DNA from: a virus
Strand: one strand, 5' to 3'
IMG/VR virus record: IMGVR_UViG_3300035126_001036
Location: 1 to 64,000 of that record
Length of the DNA stretch: 64,000 nucleotides
Shown: positions 5,778 to 51,422 of the stretch, piece by piece
Layout: the number at the start of each line of letters is the position of its first letter
Position numbering within the stretch: position 1 is the stretch's first letter
Notes under the pieces: model-generated
Told to the model about the DNA's origin: nothing
The model's input: the letters and a program-made list of their open reading frames with translations, nothing else
Database searches by the model: none
Program-made: the position numbers and the translations under genes

Positions 5778-7010
5778 ATGACCTCTATTATTCTTCGTCC
5801 TCATCAGGCGACGGCTCTTTCTTCTATGGGAGAAAACGATCTTGGTAAAATTATTCTTCCGACTGGTGCAGGTAAAAGTATTGTTTTTATCAAAAACACC
5901 ATAGAGCAATTTAAATCTGATATTCCCCAGACTGTTTGCGTTGTTGCCCCAAGGATTCTCCTCGCGGTTCAACTTTCTGCTGATTACGAAAAGCACGTTA
6001 ATAATGCGAAATATATGCATGTGCATTCTGGTAGTCGGCTAAGAAACTACCGCACTACCAATATAAAAGATATTCAAGAGTGGCATAATATCCATAAAGA
6101 TGATCATAAACTTATTTTTACTTCTTATAATTCCCTGAAGAAAATCACCGAGTCAAATATTAAGGTGAACACCTACAATTTTGATGAATGTCACAATTCT
6201 ACTAAGAAGTCCTTCTTTCCACACATTGAAGATGCAGTAAGGGAAGCAGACAAGAAGTACTTTTTTACTGCCACTCCTAAGAACTCTGCAATTCCAACAA
6301 AAAAACCCGGAATGAATATTGCCGAGGTTTATGGTCATGATATTTGTAAGATTCCTATGACCGAGATGGTATATGGTGGTTATGTTTTGCCTCCATTGGT
6401 GGTTAAGAAGGAAGTGAATATTGAAGAAAGTATGGATGAAATGAATAATAATCTGATTCTAAAAACCTTGGACGAGGATACTCCCAAGAAGGTTCTTATT
6501 TCTGCGAAATCAACAAAATCAATTATTTCTCTTCTTACTGAGACCGATTTTGTCTCTCAGATGAAGGACAGAGATTATAGTATTATGCATATAACTGCGG
6601 CTCACGGGGCATATATTGATGGTAAAGAGGTAAAGCGAGATGTGTTTTTTAGAACTTTGGATGAGTGGGGAAATGACGATTCTAAGAAGTTTGTTCTTCT
6701 TAACTACTCGATTCTTTCTGAAGGGATCAATGTCAATTCGTTGGATGCCGTGATCTTTATGAGAAATATGGATGCAATTGCCATGTTGCAAACCATTGGA
6801 CGTGTGATCCGTCTTCATAAAGAAGATGCAGATCACATTGCTTCTGGTGAATTGCGGGTCGGGGATTATAAAAATTACAAGAAGCCTTATGGTATGGTAG
6901 TACTTCCTCACGGTGATTCCAAATCGAAATCAATTGCTTCCGATATTGAAAATTTAATTTATCGGTCATTTGTTGCAGGCGAAGTAGTTTCTCAGGAAAT
7001 TGTAAAGTAG
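5778..7010 (+). CDS. superfamily 2 DNA/RNA helicase
   Basis: 410 residues with the SF2 motifs in order: Q-like RPHQATAL, Walker A PTGAGKS (~27-35), motif Ia VVAPRILLA, DECH box (NFDECHN), motif III TATP, motif V-like NYSILSEGINV and motif VI QTIGRVIRLHKE. This is the core of UvsW/type III restriction-type helicases, which in T4-like phages remodel recombination and replication forks. It is shorter than T4 UvsW and lacks an obvious extra N-terminal domain. It is transcribed alone from its own module and is followed by another palindrome at 7007, overlapping its stop codon. Confidence 0.85.
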   Translation: MTSIILRPHQATALSSMGENDLGKIILPTGAGKSIVFIKNTIEQFKSDIPQTVCVVAPRILLAVQLSADYEKHVNNAKYMHVHSGSRLRNYRTTNIKDIQEWHNIHKDDHKLIFTSYNSLKKITESNIKVNTYNFDECHNSTKKSFFPHIEDAVREADKKYFFTATPKNSAIPTKKPGMNIAEVYGHDICKIPMTEMVYGGYVLPPLVVKKEVNIEESMDEMNNNLILKTLDEDTPKKVLISAKSTKSIISLLTETDFVSQMKDRDYSIMHITAAHGAYIDGKEVKRDVFFRTLDEWGNDDSKKFVLLNYSILSEGINVNSLDAVIFMRNMDAIAMLQTIGRVIRLHKEDADHIASGELRVGDYKNYKKPYGMVVLPHGDSKSKSIASDIENLIYRSFVAGEVVSQEIVK

Positions 7011-7105: not shown

Positions 7106-8431
7106 ATGTTCAAAATTTCTGAAAAAGCCAACCCTAATTATCTTGCGGAGATCGTTGTATTAAATAATCTGCGACCACACCCAAACGCAGATAGATTGCA
7201 AATCGCCACAATTCAAGGAAATAGTGTGATTGTTTCTCTTGATGCCAAGGAAGGGGATGTTTATGTTTATTTCCCATTAGAGTGCGCCATAAATAAAGAA
7301 TTTCTTTCTTGGAGTAATTCGTTTTCCGATAAGACACTTAATAACGACAAAGAAGTGGCTGGATTCTTTAATACGAAAGGTCGTGTGAGGGCAGTTAAAC
7401 TCCGTGGAATCCCATCACAAGGTTATGCTCTTCCGGCCCAAAAATTTCTTGATTGGCTAGAAGAAAAGACTGGAAAATCCATTTCTCTTAAAGAAGAATG
7501 GATCGGAAAGGAGTTTGATTCATATGATGATATTCTGATCTGTGAGAAATATGTAAGTCCTCTAGTCCTTAAAAATCAGAATAAAGAGAAAAAGAATCAA
7601 AAGAAAGTTGTTCGTGAGCCAAAAGTGGTGGACGGACAATTCCGCTTCCATCCTGATACTCTTCAACTGAAGAAATCTATTCATAATATCTCTCCAAATG
7701 ATTATATTTCTATTACACGAAAACTTCATGGAACTTCCTGGGTGGCAAGTCGCCTTCTTTGTAATAAAAAACTGACTCGATTTGAAAAAATCCTGAAGCG
7801 TTTTGGTATCAAAATTCAAGATACTCATTACGATCTTCTTTGGGCCTCTCGTAGAGTTCTAAAGAACGGTTTTCTAGAAATCGGGAATAAAGATCATTTC
7901 TATTCTTATGATCTCTGGGAAGAAATCGCCAAATCAGTCGAATATGCCATTCAAGATTCCATTACTCTTTATGGTGAAGCAGTGGGGTACACGAAAACCG
8001 GGGCGTACATTCAAACCGGATATGATTATGGCTGCCCCGCCGGGCAGTTTGCAACTTATGTCTACCGAATTACAACAACCAATCATTCTGGGCAGGTTTA
8101 TGAATTTTCTCATAGGCAAGTCAAGGACTATTGCGAAAAATATGGTCTGAATATGGTTCCAGAGATTTATTATGGAAAAGCAAAGGACTTATATCCCGAA
8201 CTTTCCGTGAATGATCATTGGCATCAAAACTTCCTTGATCGTCTTATTGGAGATTATCTTGAAAAAGACTGTGAACTGTGCAAATCTAAGAAAGTACCAG
8301 ATGAAGGTGTCTGTCTAAGAAAGGATATTTTTGATTCTGAAATTTATAAACTAAAATCCTTCAAATTCCTAGAATGGGAAACTAAGGAATTGGACAACGA
8401 AAACTTTGTAGATTTGGAGTCAGAAAATTGA
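7106..8431 (+). CDS. RNA ligase (DraRnl/Rnl5-like, N-terminal OB fold)
   Basis: 441 residues. Nucleotidyltransferase motif I is ITRKLHGTSW (~residues 196-206; KxHGTS with Lys as the AMP-linked residue), followed by LYGEAVGYTKTGAYIQ and a C-terminal KLKSFKFL motif V-like lysine pair. The first ~110 residues (YLAEIVVLNNLRPHPNADRLQIATI) resemble a tRNA-binding/OB domain, the arrangement known for Deinococcus Rnl5. The stop overlaps the kinase start, so ligase and kinase are coupled. Likely seals tRNA or other RNA cut by host anticodon nucleases; this role follows from T4 Rnl/Pnkp and is inferred here. Confidence 0.82.
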   Translation: MFKISEKANPNYLAEIVVLNNLRPHPNADRLQIATIQGNSVIVSLDAKEGDVYVYFPLECAINKEFLSWSNSFSDKTLNNDKEVAGFFNTKGRVRAVKLRGIPSQGYALPAQKFLDWLEEKTGKSISLKEEWIGKEFDSYDDILICEKYVSPLVLKNQNKEKKNQKKVVREPKVVDGQFRFHPDTLQLKKSIHNISPNDYISITRKLHGTSWVASRLLCNKKLTRFEKILKRFGIKIQDTHYDLLWASRRVLKNGFLEIGNKDHFYSYDLWEEIAKSVEYAIQDSITLYGEAVGYTKTGAYIQTGYDYGCPAGQFATYVYRITTTNHSGQVYEFSHRQVKDYCEKYGLNMVPEIYYGKAKDLYPELSVNDHWHQNFLDRLIGDYLEKDCELCKSKKVPDEGVCLRKDIFDSEIYKLKSFKFLEWETKELDNENFVDLESEN

Positions 8432-8952
8432 AAATCCGAAACCGGGCTATTCTTCTCTGTGGAGTGCCGACTTCAGGCAAATCTTCCTGGGTGGCACAAA
8501 ACAGTGACGGTTATATGGTCATTTCATCGGACAATATCATCGAAAATTATGCCAAAAATGTTGGCTCTACATATAATGAGGTATTCGATGATTATATCGA
8601 AACTGCAATTGAATTGATGCTAGGTCAATTGCGGCATTTTGTTCACCAAGGACAAAATATTATTGTTGATCAGACGCATCTGACTCCAAAGGTACGAAAG
8701 CGGAAACTCAAAATGATTCCGGATCATTATGAGAAGATTGCTGTTTATTTTGAAATTTCTAAAGAAGAAATGTTCCAAAGAAATCATAATAAAGATCGAA
8801 CCAAGACTATTCCAGATTTTGTTTTAGAATCTATGCATGGTTCTTATATTCGGCCCACTATTGATGAGGGATTCTTGACCGTCTATAGCGGCGAAGAATT
8901 TTCTCTTGTGCCAGCCGAAAAACTGTCACAACCGCAGGCCATTTCTGTTTAA
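8428..8952 (+). CDS. polynucleotide 5'-kinase (P-loop, kinase-only)
   Basis: 174 residues starting with TTG inside the ligase stop (ATTGA overlap). Walker A GVPTSGKSS (~12-20), the Asp of VISSDNI, IIVDQTHLTPKVRKRKL (Walker-B-like DQT and lid arginines), and the nucleoside-binding helix match the AAA_33/T4 PseT-type kinase domain. It has no HAD phosphatase domain; the metallophosphatase at 9425 may supply that step. Its last codons carry a palindrome half-site for the next promoter. A later start is unlikely because residues 3-12 form the beta-strand before the P-loop. Confidence 0.82.
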   Translation: MKIRNRAILLCGVPTSGKSSWVAQNSDGYMVISSDNIIENYAKNVGSTYNEVFDDYIETAIELMLGQLRHFVHQGQNIIVDQTHLTPKVRKRKLKMIPDHYEKIAVYFEISKEEMFQRNHNKDRTKTIPDFVLESMHGSYIRPTIDEGFLTVYSGEEFSLVPAEKLSQPQAISV

Positions 8953-13599: not shown

Positions 13600-14070
13600 A
13601 TGACTTCTAAATCTCAACTGCAAACCAAAATTCAAGAACTGGAAGAAGAAATTTCTTCTTTTAAACAACAACTGAATAACTACAAAGAGACACCAACCAT
13701 CGAAACCGCCAAAGTTGGTGATGTTCTAGAAGACGGTTGTATTGTACTCAAAAAAGAAAATGGTCTCGCTCTTTTGGTGGCCCCAGAATCAACCGAGGTT
13801 TATGTTACTTGGAGTAAAGAGTTTTCAACAGTATTCAAGAAACTAGAAGAACAAGGATTTAATCCTTCTCAGTTCTTTATTCCAACCATGGATCAACTTA
13901 ATCTTGCCTATAAGACCATTCCTCAACACTTCGCCAGCACCGGCTATTGGTCTTCTATAGAGTTCACTGCTACTCTCGCTTGCGGCGTGTTCTTTAATGT
14001 TGGCAGTGCGTACCGCGGCACTAAGACGCTTACGTGCTGCGTGCGTGCCTTCCGGTGTGTTACTTATTGA
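13600..14070 (+). CDS. variable C-type-lectin-like protein A (DGR-target-like)
   Basis: 156 residues: N-terminal coiled coil (TKIQELEEEISSFKQQLNNY), a conserved middle domain (VGDVLEDGCIVLKKENGLALLVAP) and a C-terminal domain ending YWSS...VRAFRCVTY, the edge motifs of FGE-sulfatase/DUF1566-type C-type-lectin folds in which diversity-generating retroelements place variable regions. Its paralogue at 50952 is near-identical up to YWSS and after VRAF, but differs in most codons between. The variable block is G+C richer than the rest of the gene. Transcribed alone. Binding function is inferred; no reverse transcriptase was found in the window. Confidence 0.75.
   Translation: MTSKSQLQTKIQELEEEISSFKQQLNNYKETPTIETAKVGDVLEDGCIVLKKENGLALLVAPESTEVYVTWSKEFSTVFKKLEEQGFNPSQFFIPTMDQLNLAYKTIPQHFASTGYWSSIEFTATLACGVFFNVGSAYRGTKTLTCCVRAFRCVTY
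13944..14042 (+). other. hypervariable block of protein A
   Basis: Aligned codon by codon with 51296-51394, about 22 codons differ with roughly 25 changes at codon positions 1-2 and 7 at position 3 (counted by eye). Both flanks are near-identical, including ~38 bp from GTGCGTGCC across the stop. Confidence 0.6.
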
Positions 14071-22060: not shown

Positions 22061-22654
22061 ATGTATGTAACTTTAAGGGAGGCAAGAAAACAACTAGGAC
22101 TTCATCCAAATACCCTTAGAAAGTATGCCGATGAGGGGATTATTGAAACAATAAAAACTCCATCTGGACAACGAAGATTCAATGTTGAATCTTTTATAAA
22201 ACAAAAACAAAATAGTTTACAAACAATTCTTTACTGCAGAGTTTCAAGTGCTAGACAAAAAGACGACCTCCAAAATCAAAAAAATTATCTCATCTCAAAG
22301 TACCCAGGAGCAGAGGTTATTATTGATGTCGGCTCTGGACTCAATTTTAAACGAAGAGGTTTGCGTTCCATTTTGGAACGATTATTGCAGGGAGATTCAA
22401 TCCAACTTGTGGTTGCCCAGCGTGACCGACTTTGCAGATTCGGATTTGACCTCATTGAATATCTCGTCGTTAAAAACGGTGGAGAAATCGTGGTTCTCGA
22501 TCAAATCGAGCACAGTCCAGAAGGAGAACTTGTATCCGACATCCTTTCTATCATCCATGTTTTCTCTTGTAGAATACATGGGATGCGAAAGTATAAAAAT
22601 CAAATCAAAGAAGATAAGGATTTACCCAAACCAAACTCAAAGACAAATCCTTAG
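22061..22654 (+). CDS. tnpA: IS607-family serine recombinase
   Basis: 197 residues. Residues 1-50 form a MerR-type winged helix (YVTLREARKQLGLHPNTLRKYADEGIIETIKTPSGQRRF); 55-~170 are the resolvase catalytic domain (LYCRVSSARQKDDLQNQKNYL with catalytic Ser; IQLVVAQRDRLCRFGFDLIEYL, the RDRLxRFGF motif). Full length for the family, with no obvious lesion. Overlaps tnpB as usual in IS607. Confidence 0.88.
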   Translation: MYVTLREARKQLGLHPNTLRKYADEGIIETIKTPSGQRRFNVESFIKQKQNSLQTILYCRVSSARQKDDLQNQKNYLISKYPGAEVIIDVGSGLNFKRRGLRSILERLLQGDSIQLVVAQRDRLCRFGFDLIEYLVVKNGGEIVVLDQIEHSPEGELVSDILSIIHVFSCRIHGMRKYKNQIKEDKDLPKPNSKTNP

Positions 22655-23735
22655 ACAATGGTTTGGTGCATCAAGATACACTTATAATGAAACCGTTAAG
22701 TTTTTAAAAGAACCAGATACTAAGGCATCTTGGAAATCAATAAAAACTGGTTTGATTCATTCTTTACCCGATTGGGCGGAAGAAATTCCTTATCAAATTA
22801 AATCTGTTGCCGTAAGAGATTGCTGTAAGGCAGTTTCTATGTGTAAACGAAAAAATAGAGGAATTCCACCAGAAGATTGGCATGAAGTTAAATTTAGAAG
22901 CAGACGTGAACCAAAACAAACAATTTACGTTCCTAAGACTTCTATATCTAAAAATGGTGTTTATCACACTATTTTAGGGAAATTAAAAATGAGTGAAATG
23001 CTTCCCGACAACATTATGGATTCAAGATTAACATTAGATAATGGTAGATACTTTTTAATAATTCCTTACGAAGAAAAAACAATTCCATGTGAGAACCAAG
23101 CAAGAGTTGTTTCTTTAGATCCAGGAGTTAGAATATTCCAGACATTTTATAACCCAGAATTTTCCGGGGCTATTGGTGATGGCGACATTGGTAGAATAAC
23201 CAGATTATGTTATCATCTTGATTCTCTAATCTCAAAACGAGATAAGTCTAAGTCTAGAAAAAAATATAGACTCAATAAGGCTATCAAACGAATGAGAAAT
23301 AAAATCAAAGATTTGGTCGATGAAATTCATCATAAGACTGCAAGGTTTTTGGTTGATAATTTTGATATTATTCTTCTTCCTTCATTTGATGTAAGTCAAA
23401 TGGTTAAAAAGGGTAAGAGAAAAATCAACTCTAAAACGACCAGATCTATGTTGACATGGGCTCATTATAGATTTAAGTGTTTTCTTAAAGACAAATGTGA
23501 AGAATTTAATAAGGTTCTTCTTATTGTTAATGAGGCCTATACATCAAAAACAGTGTCTTGGAATGGAAAAATTAATTACTCTTTAGGTGGATCTAAAGTT
23601 GTTAAAGACAAAAACCATTGTGTCCCTAGAGATATTAATGGAGCCCGAAATATTTGGGTAAAAAGCGTCTCAAGAATTCTTGAGGCTTTGGGAGATAGCC
23701 CCTCAAGTAGCAATACTTGTGCATTGTTAACGTAA
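22578..23735 (+). CDS. tnpB: IS607-type TnpB, divergent
   Basis: 385 residues from the ATG at 22578, inside tnpA; the frame is open upstream to 22248 but that region is tnpA shadow. KIRIYPNQTQRQILRQWFGASRYTYNET is the TnpB start; RuvC-I Asp in VVSLDPGVRIFQTFY; RuvC-III Asp in PRDINGARNI. The RuvC-II region reads LLPSFDVSQM, with Ser where an acidic residue is expected, and the zinc finger after TSKT lacks its CxxC cysteines (TSKTVSWNGKINYSLGGSK). It may be nuclease-dead or use another acidic residue. Confidence 0.8.
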   Translation: MGCESIKIKSKKIRIYPNQTQRQILRQWFGASRYTYNETVKFLKEPDTKASWKSIKTGLIHSLPDWAEEIPYQIKSVAVRDCCKAVSMCKRKNRGIPPEDWHEVKFRSRREPKQTIYVPKTSISKNGVYHTILGKLKMSEMLPDNIMDSRLTLDNGRYFLIIPYEEKTIPCENQARVVSLDPGVRIFQTFYNPEFSGAIGDGDIGRITRLCYHLDSLISKRDKSKSRKKYRLNKAIKRMRNKIKDLVDEIHHKTARFLVDNFDIILLPSFDVSQMVKKGKRKINSKTTRSMLTWAHYRFKCFLKDKCEEFNKVLLIVNEAYTSKTVSWNGKINYSLGGSKVVKDKNHCVPRDINGARNIWVKSVSRILEALGDSPSSSNTCALLT

Positions 23736-29363: not shown

Positions 29364-29566
29364 ATTACAACGAAATCGGAAAGTACAAAAGGCCAATGAA
29401 TCTTTTCGAGAAACTTGTTACCGGATGGAGACAGATGTTTGACAACCAATGGGAGTGGTGGTATCATCTAACGGAGACCCCAGAAGAAATGTATTTTGAG
29501 TTTTGGTTGATGTTGAATATGGATATGGTCGCTTATGAGGACGAGCTTTACTACAATGGAAAATAA
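29360..29566 (+). CDS. Trp/Tyr-rich small protein (GWKYW family)
   Basis: 68 residues: LFEKLVTGWRQMFDNQWEWWYHLTETPEEMYFEFWLMLNMDMV. Overlaps the previous paralogue by 4 bp. Confidence 0.6.
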   Translation: MNYNEIGKYKRPMNLFEKLVTGWRQMFDNQWEWWYHLTETPEEMYFEFWLMLNMDMVAYEDELYYNGK

Positions 29567-29569
29567 TTT

Positions 29570-29827
29570 ATGAACCCCGAGTATCCTTTTGAAATCCTAA
29601 TAAAAACAGTAAAAACCATTAGGAGTTTGAAGCACGATGCTGGTTTCAAAACCCAAATCATTCCTAGTGTCACCATTTACATTACCGATAATCCCACCTA
29701 TCTTGGGATTGTCTTGAATAATTGGGAAAAAGTATTACATATGGTAAAATCAGAACAGATGGTCGTGCATTACACGGACACCCAAGATTCCGAAAACAGT
29801 TTTCTTATGGAGTTGCAACCCCAATGA
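29570..29827 (+). CDS. ValRS-tail / Vs-like protein, copy 1
   Basis: 85 residues: KTVKTIRSLKHDAGFKTQIIPSVTIYITDNPTYLGIVLNNWEKVLHMVKSEQMVV. The 'IRsLk.dAg.....ip.v.i' pattern resembles the region after the anticodon-binding domain of valyl-tRNA synthetase. Shorter than copy 2 and lacking its last ~25 residues. Confidence 0.45.
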   Translation: MNPEYPFEILIKTVKTIRSLKHDAGFKTQIIPSVTIYITDNPTYLGIVLNNWEKVLHMVKSEQMVVHYTDTQDSENSFLMELQPQ

Positions 29828-30069
29828 AATACTATAGATACCATTGTCCATCTAATCTAGGGTTGGACGTAACAAGAACTCTGAGCGAAGAACAAATTTT
29901 GTGTGAATATGGACTTTTCTGGTTTAATAAGATGTACCAGAAATATGGCAAAGAGTACGTGGATGCTAATTTCACCAGTAAAGATTGCATAGAAGATTTT
30001 ATTGTGGTAAACTGGGCCTACGAAGTCAAAGGAACCGGAACTTTTTTGAATGATTATGAGCCAGCATAA
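29824..30069 (+). CDS. 81-residue hypothetical protein
   Basis: MKYYRYHCPSNLGLDVTRTLSEEQILCEYGLFWFNKMYQKYGKEYV...SKDCIEDFIVVNWAYEV. A phage family recognisable by 'SEe.Il..Y..yW...m.k.y....CieDwivvnWA'. Starts in an ATGA overlap. Confidence 0.65.
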   Translation: MKYYRYHCPSNLGLDVTRTLSEEQILCEYGLFWFNKMYQKYGKEYVDANFTSKDCIEDFIVVNWAYEVKGTGTFLNDYEPA

Positions 30070-30394
30070 ACACCCTTACGAAAAAACACTGTCCATCATC
30101 ACACTCATAAGAAGCCTTAAACATGATGCTGGAATTCCACATAAACCAGTTCCAAGAGTATTAATCAAAACTCAAGACAACTTTGATGAATTTTTAGTGC
30201 TCGTTGGTTCTTGGGAAGATATTATGTTTATGGAGAAGATTGAGAAACTAATTTTTGTTTTTAATGATACAATCAATCCTGATAATGATGTTGCATTTGA
30301 ATGTACCAAAGAGGATGGAGCGAAAATTCTGGTTTCTCAAGAAGACTTTGAATTTATGTTGAAAATTACAAGGAGTATGGGCCATGGACCTTAA
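30056..30394 (+). CDS. ValRS-tail / Vs-like protein, copy 2
   Basis: 112 residues. LSIITLIRSLKHDAGIPHKPVPRVLIKT...LVGSWEDIMFMEKIEKLIF...EDGAKILVSQED follows valyl-tRNA synthetase tails (IR.iRae..ip..k...vlik, f...l.k.e.l, ...ga.i.ip...). Its length is close to the ~13-kDa T4 Vs protein that modifies host ValRS; the relation to Vs is a hypothesis. Copy 1 lies 230 bp upstream. The overlapping ATG at 30050 is an alternative start. Confidence 0.45.
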   Translation: MSQHKHPYEKTLSIITLIRSLKHDAGIPHKPVPRVLIKTQDNFDEFLVLVGSWEDIMFMEKIEKLIFVFNDTINPDNDVAFECTKEDGAKILVSQEDFEFMLKITRSMGHGP

Positions 30395-33256: not shown

Positions 33257-34456
33257 CTATTGATTTTCTAGACGCTTCAACGCAGACGCTAAATGATGTT
33301 GGACACCATTTAGACTTACTTCCGCTCCACGTCCGTAATCGACATACTCTGCCGATGTTAATTCTTGACCCGAAAGGTCTAACCACCCTTTTTTAAGGAT
33401 GTTGATAGAGGCATTTAAGTCTCTATCGCGATGAGAGCCACAAGAAGGACAAGTCCATTCACGAACACTTAAAGGCATCTTGTCTTCTTTATGTCCACAG
33501 TTAGAACAGGTCTTGGAACTAGGGTAAAATCTATCTATTTTGGTCAAAGTTTTTCCGTACCAATTACACTTGTATTCCAACATAGAAACAAAAGTAGACC
33601 AAGAGGCATCACTAATGGATTTTGCAAGTTTGTGGTTCTTTAACATTCCAGAAACATTTAAGTCTTCAACAACAATCAAATCAAATGTCTTAACAAGTTC
33701 TGTTGAAATATTATGCAAGAAATAATTTCTTGAGTTAGTAATGTTTTCGTGTACTTTAGCAACTTTAATACGTTGTCTATTATAACGATTACTACCTTTT
33801 TGTTTACGACTTAAATGTTTCTGTGCTTTTTTAAGTTTAGATTGGTTCTTTCTAAACCATCTTGGGTTATTGATGACTTGACCATTTGATAAAGTCATTA
33901 GTTCTTTTAAACCCAAATCAATACCTACTACTTTACCAGTAGAGGGTATTGGATTGAGTTCTTGTTGGACTAAAATTGAAACAAAATACTTTCCGGTTGG
34001 AGTTTTAGAAACAGTAATGCTTCTAAAATCGGCTTCTTCAGGGATATTTCGGTCCAGAACAATTTTGACCCAACCAATTTTTTCGATCCTTATTGAACAT
34101 TTTTCTTGATCAAGTTTAAATCTAGTTTTTTCTGGAAGCCTAAATGATTGTCTATTGGTCTTTTTCTTGAATTTCGGCTTTCCAAGTTTAACCTTCCTTT
34201 TTTTGTTAAAGTATTGTTTCTTAAACTCAACAAAATCCATTCTTTTTTGTTGAAGTGTTGATGCCGATACTTCTTTAAGGAACTCAAACTCCTCTTGGTC
34301 TTTTAGTGTTTTTTCATTTACTATGGTACCATCATTATTGTTGAAGTTTTCAACTAGTTTGTTCCACACAAACCTACAGCAACCAAAAGTTTTGGCAAGC
34401 AAAATTTCTTGTTCTTTTGTAGGATAAATCCTATACTTATATGCCTTTAATTGCAT
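33257..34456 (-). CDS. tnpB: TnpB (IS200/IS605 type), intact
   Basis: 399 residues on the minus strand. AYKYRIYPTKEQEILLAKTFGCCRFVWN is the TnpB start; RuvC-I GIDLGLKELMTLSNG, RuvC-II VVEDLNVSGM, zinc finger CSNCG...CPSCGSHRDRDLNASINI with the RuvC-III Asp. All catalytic residues and the four cysteines are present, so an active RNA-guided nuclease is plausible. No tnpA accompanies it. The guide RNA should run off its 3' end (left on the + strand). The only clear minus-strand gene in the window. Confidence 0.9.
   Translation of the reverse strand: MQLKAYKYRIYPTKEQEILLAKTFGCCRFVWNKLVENFNNNDGTIVNEKTLKDQEEFEFLKEVSASTLQQKRMDFVEFKKQYFNKKRKVKLGKPKFKKKTNRQSFRLPEKTRFKLDQEKCSIRIEKIGWVKIVLDRNIPEEADFRSITVSKTPTGKYFVSILVQQELNPIPSTGKVVGIDLGLKELMTLSNGQVINNPRWFRKNQSKLKKAQKHLSRKQKGSNRYNRQRIKVAKVHENITNSRNYFLHNISTELVKTFDLIVVEDLNVSGMLKNHKLAKSISDASWSTFVSMLEYKCNWYGKTLTKIDRFYPSSKTCSNCGHKEDKMPLSVREWTCPSCGSHRDRDLNASINILKKGWLDLSGQELTSAEYVDYGRGAEVSLNGVQHHLASALKRLENQ
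33289..33313 (-). ncRNA. candidate omega-RNA hairpin in tnpB 3' end
   Basis: CTAAATGATG and CACCATTTAG pair with a 5-nt loop inside the last tnpB codons. TnpB guide RNAs overlap the tnpB 3' end; this is a candidate scaffold stem, not a proven RNA. Confidence 0.35.
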
Positions 34457-36772: not shown

Positions 36773-37321
36773 ATGATTGACCTGTCCAAGTATATTGGCA
36801 AAAAAGTTAAATGCACTTTTAATAATGAAACTGCACTTTTCGGTGTGGTAATTCCTACGGGTAATGTACAATTTCCATATAATATTTCACATTATCTTTT
36901 TACTACTACTGGTGACGGAATGAGTATGCCTCAAATCACCGAAATCACCGAAATCACCGAAGTATCTACCATGAATGGACCCGCCCAACGCCATCCTAAC
37001 ATTAACCTTAATGATTTTAAGGACCAAATGTGTATTGTCAAGTGGAGTAATGGGAAAATTCAATATGATAAAGTTTGTTGTGATGATGAAGAAGAATCTT
37101 CGTGGGCTATATGCTTAACCGAAGACATATACTCCGATGGTAGGGTGTGTGGAACCGCTTCTCTTTACATCACCGAAATCTACGGTGAGGGGGCCTACGA
37201 AATCAAAACCAAAGAAACCTTTGATGAGCCAACCGATGAGGCCGTGGAAAAGGCAAAAGATGCAATTAAAGACCTTTCCGAAGAACAAATCGCAAAACTT
37301 CTTCACTCTTTGAAAAAATGA
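36773..37321 (+). CDS. possible tandem LSm/SH3-like protein, copy 1
   Basis: 182 residues: YIGKKVKCTFNNETALFGVVI and, later, LNDFKDQMCIVKWSNGKIQYDKVCC look like two 'L..y.G..v.v...ng....G.v' beta-barrel repeats, each ending ITEI; the tail VEKAKDAIKDLSEEQIAKLLHSLKK is nearly identical in the paralogue at 53967. A 9-bp triplet repeat codes for ITEITEITE near 36945. Overlaps the ligase start. Confidence 0.55.
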   Translation: MIDLSKYIGKKVKCTFNNETALFGVVIPTGNVQFPYNISHYLFTTTGDGMSMPQITEITEITEVSTMNGPAQRHPNINLNDFKDQMCIVKWSNGKIQYDKVCCDDEEESSWAICLTEDIYSDGRVCGTASLYITEIYGEGAYEIKTKETFDEPTDEAVEKAKDAIKDLSEEQIAKLLHSLKK

Positions 37322-38199
37322 CCAAAATCCAAAAACCACTCCTGGCCGGAAAGTTTGACCAATCAAAGGCCAAGTTTCCCTATATTGCAACACCAAAGAT
37401 TGATGGAATCCGATTTCTTATGGTAGATGGTGTTGTTGTTTCTAGAACATTCAAACCAATCCGAAACAATCACATTCAAAATCTCCTTCAAACACATCTT
37501 CCTGATGGAATTGATGGAGAACTAACTTCCGGTGAAACCTTCCAATCATCAACATCCGCTGTGATGAGCATCGAAGGGACACCAGATTTTAAGGTATGGG
37601 TTTTTGATTATGTAAATCCAAAAGAAGAAGAGATTTCTCCATTTTATATTCGGACCTTGATGATTCCTGGAATAAATGTCCCTAAAGAATGTTTTGAACT
37701 TTCTATTCTTCTTGGGGTTAATATCAAAACCCAAGAAGAGCTTGATAATTATGAAAGAATCTGTCTTGAGGCAGGTTATGAAGGGGTAATGGTGAGGGAC
37801 CCAATGGGAACCTATAAATTCGGTAGGTCTACTGTAAACGACAATATTCTTCTAAAAGTAAAACAATTTTTAGACGACGAGGCCGAACTTATTGAGATTC
37901 AAGAGAAGATGAGTAACCAGAATCCAGAAGAAAAAGACGCTTTTGGACACGTTAAGCGGTCTGCTTCTTTAGAAGGAATGGTCGCAACAGGTGTTGCAGG
38001 GACCCTGATTGTCAAAAACAAAGAAGGTCAGGTTTTTGGTGTGGGTAGTGGACTCAATGACGAATTGAGAGAAGAAATTTGGAATAATAAAGAAAAATAT
38101 ATTGGAAAATTGGTTAAGTACAAATATTTTCCCCAAGGAGTAAAGGAACTGCCAAGGCATCCGGTGTTTTTGGGTTTTAGGGACCCAGAGGACACTTGA
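37318..38199 (+). CDS. ATP-dependent DNA ligase (T7-like minimal)
   Basis: 293 residues. Motif I ATPKIDGIRFL (Lys adenylated; ~26-36), motif III-like DFKVWVFDYVN, motif IV EAGYEGVMVRDP, motif V ILLKVKQF, then an OB domain with GVGSGLNDELREEIW and a terminal ELPRHPVFLGFRDPED. Size and order match T7-type phage ligases sealing nicks during replication and repair. Translationally coupled to 36773. Fragments of its 3' end recur at 34650 and 46826. Confidence 0.92.
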   Translation: MTKIQKPLLAGKFDQSKAKFPYIATPKIDGIRFLMVDGVVVSRTFKPIRNNHIQNLLQTHLPDGIDGELTSGETFQSSTSAVMSIEGTPDFKVWVFDYVNPKEEEISPFYIRTLMIPGINVPKECFELSILLGVNIKTQEELDNYERICLEAGYEGVMVRDPMGTYKFGRSTVNDNILLKVKQFLDDEAELIEIQEKMSNQNPEEKDAFGHVKRSASLEGMVATGVAGTLIVKNKEGQVFGVGSGLNDELREEIWNNKEKYIGKLVKYKYFPQGVKELPRHPVFLGFRDPEDT

Positions 38200-49474: not shown

Positions 49475-50461
49475 ATGACTGACCCTATCCACATTGCACT
49501 AGACCGACTACATGACTATGCAGTTGGCCATCCTAATCATGACACTGATGAGATAGTGGAAGCCGCCATCGAGCCGGAGGGGCCGAGCTACAGGGATGTC
49601 TTGGCTCTCCGCGACGAATTGGATGCCGATGGCTACGGGACAGTCGATCTAGTCGCTTTCGCCCATGCCGTCCTAGCCCGCTACGGCCGCCCCACCATCG
49701 AGCCGGTGCCTGATACGAAAGCGCATGAATTGCTGAACCTGTTACTCGATGATCTTGATGCTCTGGTTGACAGCTCTGAAGGGGTCGCGGGACTACACCT
49801 AAATGGAGATGTTGCGAGTTGGGAATCGCTGCGCGAAGGGGGTAGATTTGAGACTTGGCTTATGCGCATGGACGAGGCTAGAGCTTTTCTTGATTCAACC
49901 ATGGATGAGCCTGATGACATTGCCACCACCATCGAGCCGGTGCCCGAGCCGGAGGGGAATGGGCTGTTTCATTGGCGGAACCTTGGCGACGGAAAGCCCG
50001 TTCAAGTTCGGGAGTGCCCTATGTGCGGTATCGCCCCGGCAAACGTGGACGATTGCGGTCGATTCGGTGATCCAGCCTGCCCCTATTTCGGTGTTGGCGA
50101 ACCCGAGCCGGAGGGGGTGACGGATGAGGAGTGGGACGCGATAAAAGATCGCATGTGGCGGCATTACGAAACTACTGGCTATCAAGGCGAACGGTTTATC
50201 TATCAAGGCGATTTCGATACAGCGCTTGATGTTGCCCGCCAAGAACTCGCCCGTTTCGCCCGCCCCACCATCAAGCCGGTGCCCGTCGCTGAGCGGCCAT
50301 GGGAGCGCGAGGGGTGGTGTGATAAATGCGGGATGTGTTGGAGATTTGATCCGTGTGACCGTGGATGGTGGTCTTACGGCCCCATCCTTCCTTCTGATGG
50401 CGACCCAGCCCCCTTCACCTACCTGCTCCCCCACCACGCCCTGCCGGTGCCCGGTGCCTGA
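49475..50461 (+). CDS. GC-rich modular protein with DUF551-like end
   Basis: 328 residues; GC-rich after the first ~25 codons, unlike all neighbours. A connector PTIEPVP occurs three times (after ARYGR, DDIAT, ARFAR). A Cys set CPMCGIAP...CGRFGDPACP may bind zinc. The C-terminus WCDKCGMCWRFDP...FTYLLPHHALPVPGA resembles the cyanophage/Synechococcus proteins that end 'THWLPHNALPVP' (DUF551-like). Looks transferred from a cyanobacterial or cyanophage source. Function unknown. Confidence 0.65.
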   Translation: MTDPIHIALDRLHDYAVGHPNHDTDEIVEAAIEPEGPSYRDVLALRDELDADGYGTVDLVAFAHAVLARYGRPTIEPVPDTKAHELLNLLLDDLDALVDSSEGVAGLHLNGDVASWESLREGGRFETWLMRMDEARAFLDSTMDEPDDIATTIEPVPEPEGNGLFHWRNLGDGKPVQVRECPMCGIAPANVDDCGRFGDPACPYFGVGEPEPEGVTDEEWDAIKDRMWRHYETTGYQGERFIYQGDFDTALDVARQELARFARPTIKPVPVAERPWEREGWCDKCGMCWRFDPCDRGWWSYGPILPSDGDPAPFTYLLPHHALPVPGA

Positions 50462-50795: not shown

Positions 50796-50949
50796 AAAAA
50801 CTGCGTATTCTAAGTCTATGTTAGCAGATGCTGAAGATTTTCTCTGGAAAAACTTTGGTATCTCTGTAGGAACCCCCGATTATGAATGGCCTCAAGATCA
50901 AATCATCTCAGAGGCTGTAAAACGCGGCTGGAAATTTAGTTTTTATTGA
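50782..50949 (+). CDS. 55-residue hypothetical protein
   Basis: TEKTAYSKSMLADAEDFLWKNFGISVGTPDYEWPQDQIISEAVKRGWKFSFY. Overlaps the upstream gene by 14 bp; precedes the variable protein in one operon. Confidence 0.5.
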   Translation: MTTTEKTAYSKSMLADAEDFLWKNFGISVGTPDYEWPQDQIISEAVKRGWKFSFY

Positions 50950-50951
50950 TT

Positions 50952-51422
50952 ATGACAACCAAAACACAACTTCAAACCAAAATTCAAGAACTGGAAGAAG
51001 AACTTTCTTCTTTTAAACAACAATTGAATAACTATAAAAACCATCCAACTATTCAAGAGGCATCTGTAGGTGACGTTCTTGAGGATGGCTGTATCGTCCT
51101 TAAAAAAGAAAATGGTCTCGCTCTTCTTGTAGCACCAAACTCAACCGAGGTTTATGCTACTTGGAGTAAAGAATTCCCTGAAGTCTTCAAGAAACTAGAA
51201 GAACGAGGATTTAATCCTTCTCAGTTCTTTATTCCAACCATAAATCAACTTAATCTTGCCTATAAGACCATTCCTCAACACTTCGCCAGCACCGACTATT
51301 GGTCTTCTACAGAGATTACTGCTACCATCGCTTGCTGCCAGGGCTTTAGCGGTGGTAACATCTTCAGCTTCATTGAGACGATCATGAACCGCGTGCGTGC
51401 CTTCCGGTGTGTTACTTATTGA
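50952..51422 (+). CDS. variable C-type-lectin-like protein B (DGR-target-like)
   Basis: 156 residues. Coiled coil, conserved middle domain and lectin-like C-terminus exactly as in the 13600 product; about 100 residues of the body are near-identical. YWSSTE...MNRVRAFRCVTY brackets the variable block. Unlike copy A it follows two other genes from the module at 50493. The identity extends past the stop codon (CCTTGA), beyond what protein selection requires. Confidence 0.75.
   Translation: MTTKTQLQTKIQELEEELSSFKQQLNNYKNHPTIQEASVGDVLEDGCIVLKKENGLALLVAPNSTEVYATWSKEFPEVFKKLEERGFNPSQFFIPTINQLNLAYKTIPQHFASTDYWSSTEITATIACCQGFSGGNIFSFIETIMNRVRAFRCVTY
51296..51394 (+). other. hypervariable block of protein B
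   Basis: Counterpart of 13944-14042. Codons here are mostly NNC/NNT; substitutions relative to copy A cluster at codon positions 1 and 2. The downstream GTGCGTGCCTTCCGG tract is where an initiation-of-mutagenic-homing-like sequence would be expected. Confidence 0.6.

Follow-up and report, generated by a model that had tools for sequence, protein, structure and literature searches.

We analyzed a window of 64,000 nucleotides, which is part of a cyanobacterial virus record of 138,809 bases. At positions 29,570 to 30,394, this stretch encodes three small overlapping genes, and two of their products, which we will call copy 1 and copy 2, resemble part of the tail of valyl-tRNA synthetase (ValRS). 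The genes and the ValRS-like segments within them are:

29570..29827, + strand: copy 1, 85 amino acids, ValRS-tail-like; ortholog of gp93 of Synechococcus phage B23 (75% identity)
29579..29773, + strand: ValRS-like segment of copy 1 (approximately residues 4-68), from HMM alignments and hhalign
29824..30069, + strand: linking ORF, 81 amino acids, between the two copies and overlapping both
30050..30394, + strand: copy 2, 114 amino acids, paralog of copy 1
30059..30274, + strand: ValRS-like segment of copy 2 (approximately residues 4-75), from HMM alignments; the later GAKILVS lies outside it

The start of the linking ORF overlaps the stop codon of copy 1 (ATGA), and its end overlaps the start of copy 2, which has a second ATG at 30056. 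Because of these overlaps, the three genes are probably translated together. The linking ORF belongs to no known family and shows no relationship to copy 1 or copy 2. Both copies lie in a run of small ORFs, most of them without a known family. About 100 bases 5' of copy 1, at 29439-29467, there is a promoter-like site with an extended -10, which is no more than a match to a consensus (at 11 of 12 bases).

Copy 1 and copy 2 are homologous, and hence paralogs: they are 32% identical over 79 amino acids (E = 5.8e-12 in a within-genome comparison), with identities of 30-32% overall. As the original prediction reported, the motif IRSLKHDAG is present in both proteins, and it is identical in the two. 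In copy 1, the ValRS-like segment consists of a predicted helix that contains this motif, followed by a strand-rich region. Copy 2 extends about 30 residues beyond copy 1 at its C-terminus.

The only relative that we found outside of this phage is gp93 from Synechococcus phage B23 (QGT54708.1), which is annotated as a hypothetical protein. Gp93 is much closer to copy 1 (see above) than to copy 2 (34% identity), and B23 has a single member of the family, while the phage that we studied has two. Given the ratio of non-synonymous to synonymous changes between copy 1 and gp93 (dN = 0.146, dS = 1.318, dN/dS = 0.11), this gene is constrained and is under purifying selection. No further relatives emerged when we searched IMG/VR with copy 1, copy 2, and gp93, with the IRSLKHDAG motif as a DNA pattern, and with ValRS tails, or when we scanned a plasmid collection.

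The studied phage and B23, which belongs to the Kyanoviridae, have many proteins in common; for instance, the helicases (5778-7010), RNA ligases (7106-8431), and DNA ligases (37318-38199) are 70%, 59%, and 67% identical, respectively. The RNA ligase (PF09414) is directly followed by a P-loop kinase-like protein (AAA_33), and the two genes together span 7106-8952, as in phage tRNA repair pairs. We did not find a near-identical phage record for the stretch that was searched.

Neither copy 1 nor copy 2 has a significant match in Pfam, PHROGs, or NCBIfam, and a sequence search of the PDB gave no significant match either, nor did it retrieve ValRS. (We disregarded weak library matches to PCNA_N, VipE, and Drt5 as non-significant.) The catalytic and editing domains and a complete anticodon-binding domain of ValRS are absent from these proteins of 85-114 amino acids, with no match in NCBIfam; the copies do not match the ValRS arm in Pfam (Val_tRNA-synt_C, PF10458); and TIGR00422, which describes the entire valyl-tRNA synthetase, has no match in the phage record. 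That curated libraries do not see ValRS in these proteins could be taken as a sign that the similarity is accidental. But most of the ValRS stretch at issue lies outside of any Pfam model, so the missing Pfam match is not an argument against a relationship.

To compare the phage family to cyanobacterial proteins, we built a profile from copy 1, copy 2, and gp93; cyanobacterial genomes were reached via a scan of contigs for psbA. Across 20 genomes, two of the seven weak matches were to the tail of ValRS, which had been located independently with TIGR00422. Across 386 genomes, we fetched 30 of the matches with E ≤ 0.1. Nine of these were to the ValRS tail, in register over 60-70 residues; since six of the nine were nearly identical, they represent about four lineages. 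Among the matches that we examined, the next most frequent family that could be identified was ScpA (three matches, over about 30 residues), and the others were short or scattered. L160, whose longest frame was not ValRS, was left out of the ValRS set. When ValRS proteins were ranked directly, nearly all of the cyanobacterial ones scored above seven non-cyanobacterial ones. (The latter were matches in "phage" records, some annotated as valS and some unannotated but bacterial-looking, and were used only for comparison.)

These forward searches alone would leave room for accidental similarity between a helix with an alpha/beta piece and a chance run of matching residues. The E-values for single genomes were only about 0.02-0.15, and partial matches to ScpA and to a uridine-kinase-like protein were as strong as those to ValRS or stronger. 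On the other hand, those partial matches extend over about 30 residues each, as opposed to 60-70 residues in register for ValRS.

The reverse searches, with profiles of cyanobacterial ValRS tails, also argue against chance. Copy 1 scored 15.8-21.8 bits, while the best score for any of 9,000 residue shuffles was 9.7 bits, and copy 1 exceeded all of the shuffles with every model that was compared to them. Copy 2 scored 10.0-11.5 bits with the longer models, which is above the shuffles, but 4.9 bits with a shorter model, which is not. Gp93 scored 4.2-6.7 bits, which on its own is near the noise level. One of the models, "ft," was slightly favored because its ValRS members were themselves matches in the search of 386 genomes. 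Another model, "uni," was built without the sequences of those matches, and its picocyanobacterial part came from the family of one matching genome. When we searched 2,218 ORFs from the phage and from 100 kb of B23 with the "uni" model, the three members of the family occupied the top three places, with 18.6 bits for copy 1 (E = 1.5e-4), 11.5 bits for copy 2, and 5.0 bits for gp93. So the idea that these are stand-alone proteins resembling the tail of ValRS is supported by profile searches in both directions. It is copy 1 that scores higher, and not copy 2, which had been singled out for its longer match. The alignment of copy 2 does cover IRSLKHDAG, VLIKT, and SWEDIMFMEKIEKLIF, but it ends near residue 75 and does not reach GAKILVS, so there are no statistics in favor of this last stretch, which had been counted as part of the match.

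A profile-profile comparison with hhalign gave a similar result. The profile of the three phage proteins aligned to full-length ValRS at the tail (67 columns, score 33.6, 16% identity), while windows of ValRS outside of the tail segment scored at most 12.9. Shuffling the columns gave scores of at most 26.2 (200 shuffles) or 28.0 (800 shuffles), for a Gumbel p value of about 2e-4. A family profile of ValRS was required, as the comparison with a single sequence from E. coli was uninformative. Isoleucyl-tRNA synthetase was considered as a source and was rejected (score 16.1, no match).

Overall, we think it likely that copy 1, copy 2, and gp93 form a small cyanophage family that descends from, or is at any rate homologous to, one segment of cyanobacterial ValRS, although the strength of this case is modest: the individual E-values are not impressive, and the ValRS matches from cyanobacteria are related to each other rather than independent. 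Accidental similarity seems unlikely to us, given the shuffled controls, the ranking among 2,218 ORFs, and the length of the matches.

The segment that appears to be shared comprises the final helix of the anticodon-binding helical bundle and the small piece that precedes the tRNA-binding arm. In E. coli ValRS, Pfam places Anticodon_1 at 674-824 and the Val_tRNA-synt_C arm at 886-944; the phage match corresponds to the end of Anticodon_1 plus the unnamed stretch after it, and it stops before the arm. In ValRS from Thermus (1GAX), the segment begins near residue 714. In copy 1, the aligned residues were 4-76 or 4-64 in the HMM alignments, and hhalign aligned columns 3-71 of the profile of the three phage proteins. 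The likeness to cyanobacterial ValS (TIGR00422) covers about 65 residues in register, with an IR-x-L-[KR] helix, a strand after it, and a K-x-E region, and the strongest conservation falls on the same helix in ValRS and in the phage family. The differences are large: ValRS is an enzyme of 900-1,100 residues with catalytic, editing, and tRNA-arm parts, while the phage proteins have 85-114 residues and low identity to it. They lack the tRNA-binding arm, all of the catalytic parts, and most of Anticodon_1, so that just the last part of the anticodon bundle is left. The phage proteins are acidic (pI 5.4-5.8), as is the segment in ValRS (median pI 4.8).

Structure prediction adds little. Predictions from two sequences had pLDDT of 45 and 37, which is too low to judge whether the fold is that of Thermus ValRS at residues of about 714-790, and a Foldseek search with the low-confidence model of copy 1 gave no meaningful match. 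The models do hint at an initial helix with strands after it, in line with the ValRS segment, but they cannot carry weight.

The original prediction had also proposed that these proteins might be analogs of Vs from phage T4. As Muller and Marchin reportedly established in 1977 (listed among the references of PMC8076793), T4 produces a factor that modifies the host's ValRS. Like the cyanophage proteins, Vs is a small phage protein encoded among other small genes, and it has a supposed link to ValRS. But Vs has a hydrophobic, signal-like N-terminus and several cysteines, and we found no similarity between it and the cyanophage proteins by BLASTP, by hhalign, or in PHROGs, where a search retrieves Vs, in a family of its own (phrog_1256), and not the cyanophage proteins. 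We therefore reject homology to Vs. Profile-profile comparison upholds the relationship to ValRS, for the tail segment only, and yields no match to Vs. Because Vs is unrelated by every test, calling these proteins analogs of Vs is a guess about their function and does not assign them to its family.

What might a detached piece of ValRS do for a phage? Our preferred, if tentative, proposal is that it could be a decoy that acts by protein mimicry. The segment would have been captured from a host's ValRS, and the free domain would dock where the tail of ValRS itself packs, either on the host's ValRS or on a complex that contains it. Docking might then alter the activity, the stability, or the partners of ValRS during infection. 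We favor docking on a protein over direct binding of tRNA because the catalytic parts and the arm are missing and because the phage proteins are acidic; but charge is a weak argument, as the ValRS segment is itself acidic. Also, many cyanobacterial ValRS proteins have a membrane anchor, CAAD, inserted near position 820; according to PMC4893482, it lies on the side of ValRS that faces away from the tRNA. Sequences of cyanobacterial ValRS place this insertion just after the shared segment, which is a point in favor of docking on a protein.

It is also possible, if somewhat doubtful, that the capture from ValRS was ancient and that the fold now does something unrelated, for instance by binding some other protein of the host or the phage. 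This would fit with the low identity to ValRS (16% by hhalign) while the phage proteins are conserved among themselves, with the extra C-terminal stretch in copy 2, and with the location of the genes among small ORFs that mostly lack a known family. However, the conserved helix is the same one in ValRS and in the phage family, which may mean that an interaction was retained.

A serious rival, which we nevertheless consider rather improbable, is that the proteins bind tRNA: the detached segment would contact tRNA-Val, or the tRNAs of several class Ia synthetases, and would act as a chaperone or as a shield, for instance against defenses that cut tRNA. We take this seriously because the C-terminal domain of human mitochondrial leucyl-tRNA synthetase (LeuRS), once detached, binds tRNA (KD of 0.6-2.5 µM) and rescues tRNA mutants (PMC3927953), and because the phage's RNA ligase and the adjoining P-loop kinase-like protein recall the tRNA repair pair of T4. 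B23 also encodes a CCA-adding enzyme and numerous tRNAs. The isolated LeuRS domain is a parallel in that a non-catalytic part of a class Ia synthetase, once detached, has its own activity, but it is an artificial construct, a different domain of a different synthetase, and a demonstrated binder of tRNA (PMC3927953), and it may not be homologous to the shared segment. Furthermore, the dedicated tRNA-binding arm of ValRS is missing from the phage proteins, the proteins are acidic, and the phage record contains just one tRNA gene, for leucine, and none for valine.

To return to the decoy, the fullest version of that proposal is that a captured piece of ValRS, duplicated in this phage, re-docks to control the host's ValRS, and that a Vs-like role was invented independently. 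As a whole, this chain seems unlikely to hold. If the relationship and the docking were both real, then cyanophages and T4 would have reached the same target in their hosts via unrelated proteins, and ValRS would be a control point in infection. Cells are known to have free-standing fragments of tRNA synthetases. We did not find a described phage protein that is made of this segment of ValRS. The similarity to ValRS also provides a lead for proteins like gp93, which are annotated only as hypothetical.

Several other features of the window are worth mentioning. The gene at 49475-50461 has a G+C content of 57-60%, compared to about 33-41% around it, and a tblastn search against phages gave only a 39-residue match, to a Microcystis phage; it appears to have been acquired recently from a source of high G+C. 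On visual inspection, an ORF resembling a serine recombinase adjoins a TnpB-like ORF at 22061-23735, and another TnpB-like ORF lies on the opposite strand at 33257-34456, suggesting that this phage carries elements of the IS607/IS605 type. Two similar proteins of 156-158 amino acids, encoded at 13600-14070 and 50946-51422, are most divergent in their C-terminal parts and end in VRAFRCVTY; these are possibly variable lectin-like proteins. Finally, the protein encoded at 755-1792 is built from repeats of about 45 residues that are nearly identical to each other (ASGFGTKYTNPATLPTG...), and a second long frame is open on the same DNA.
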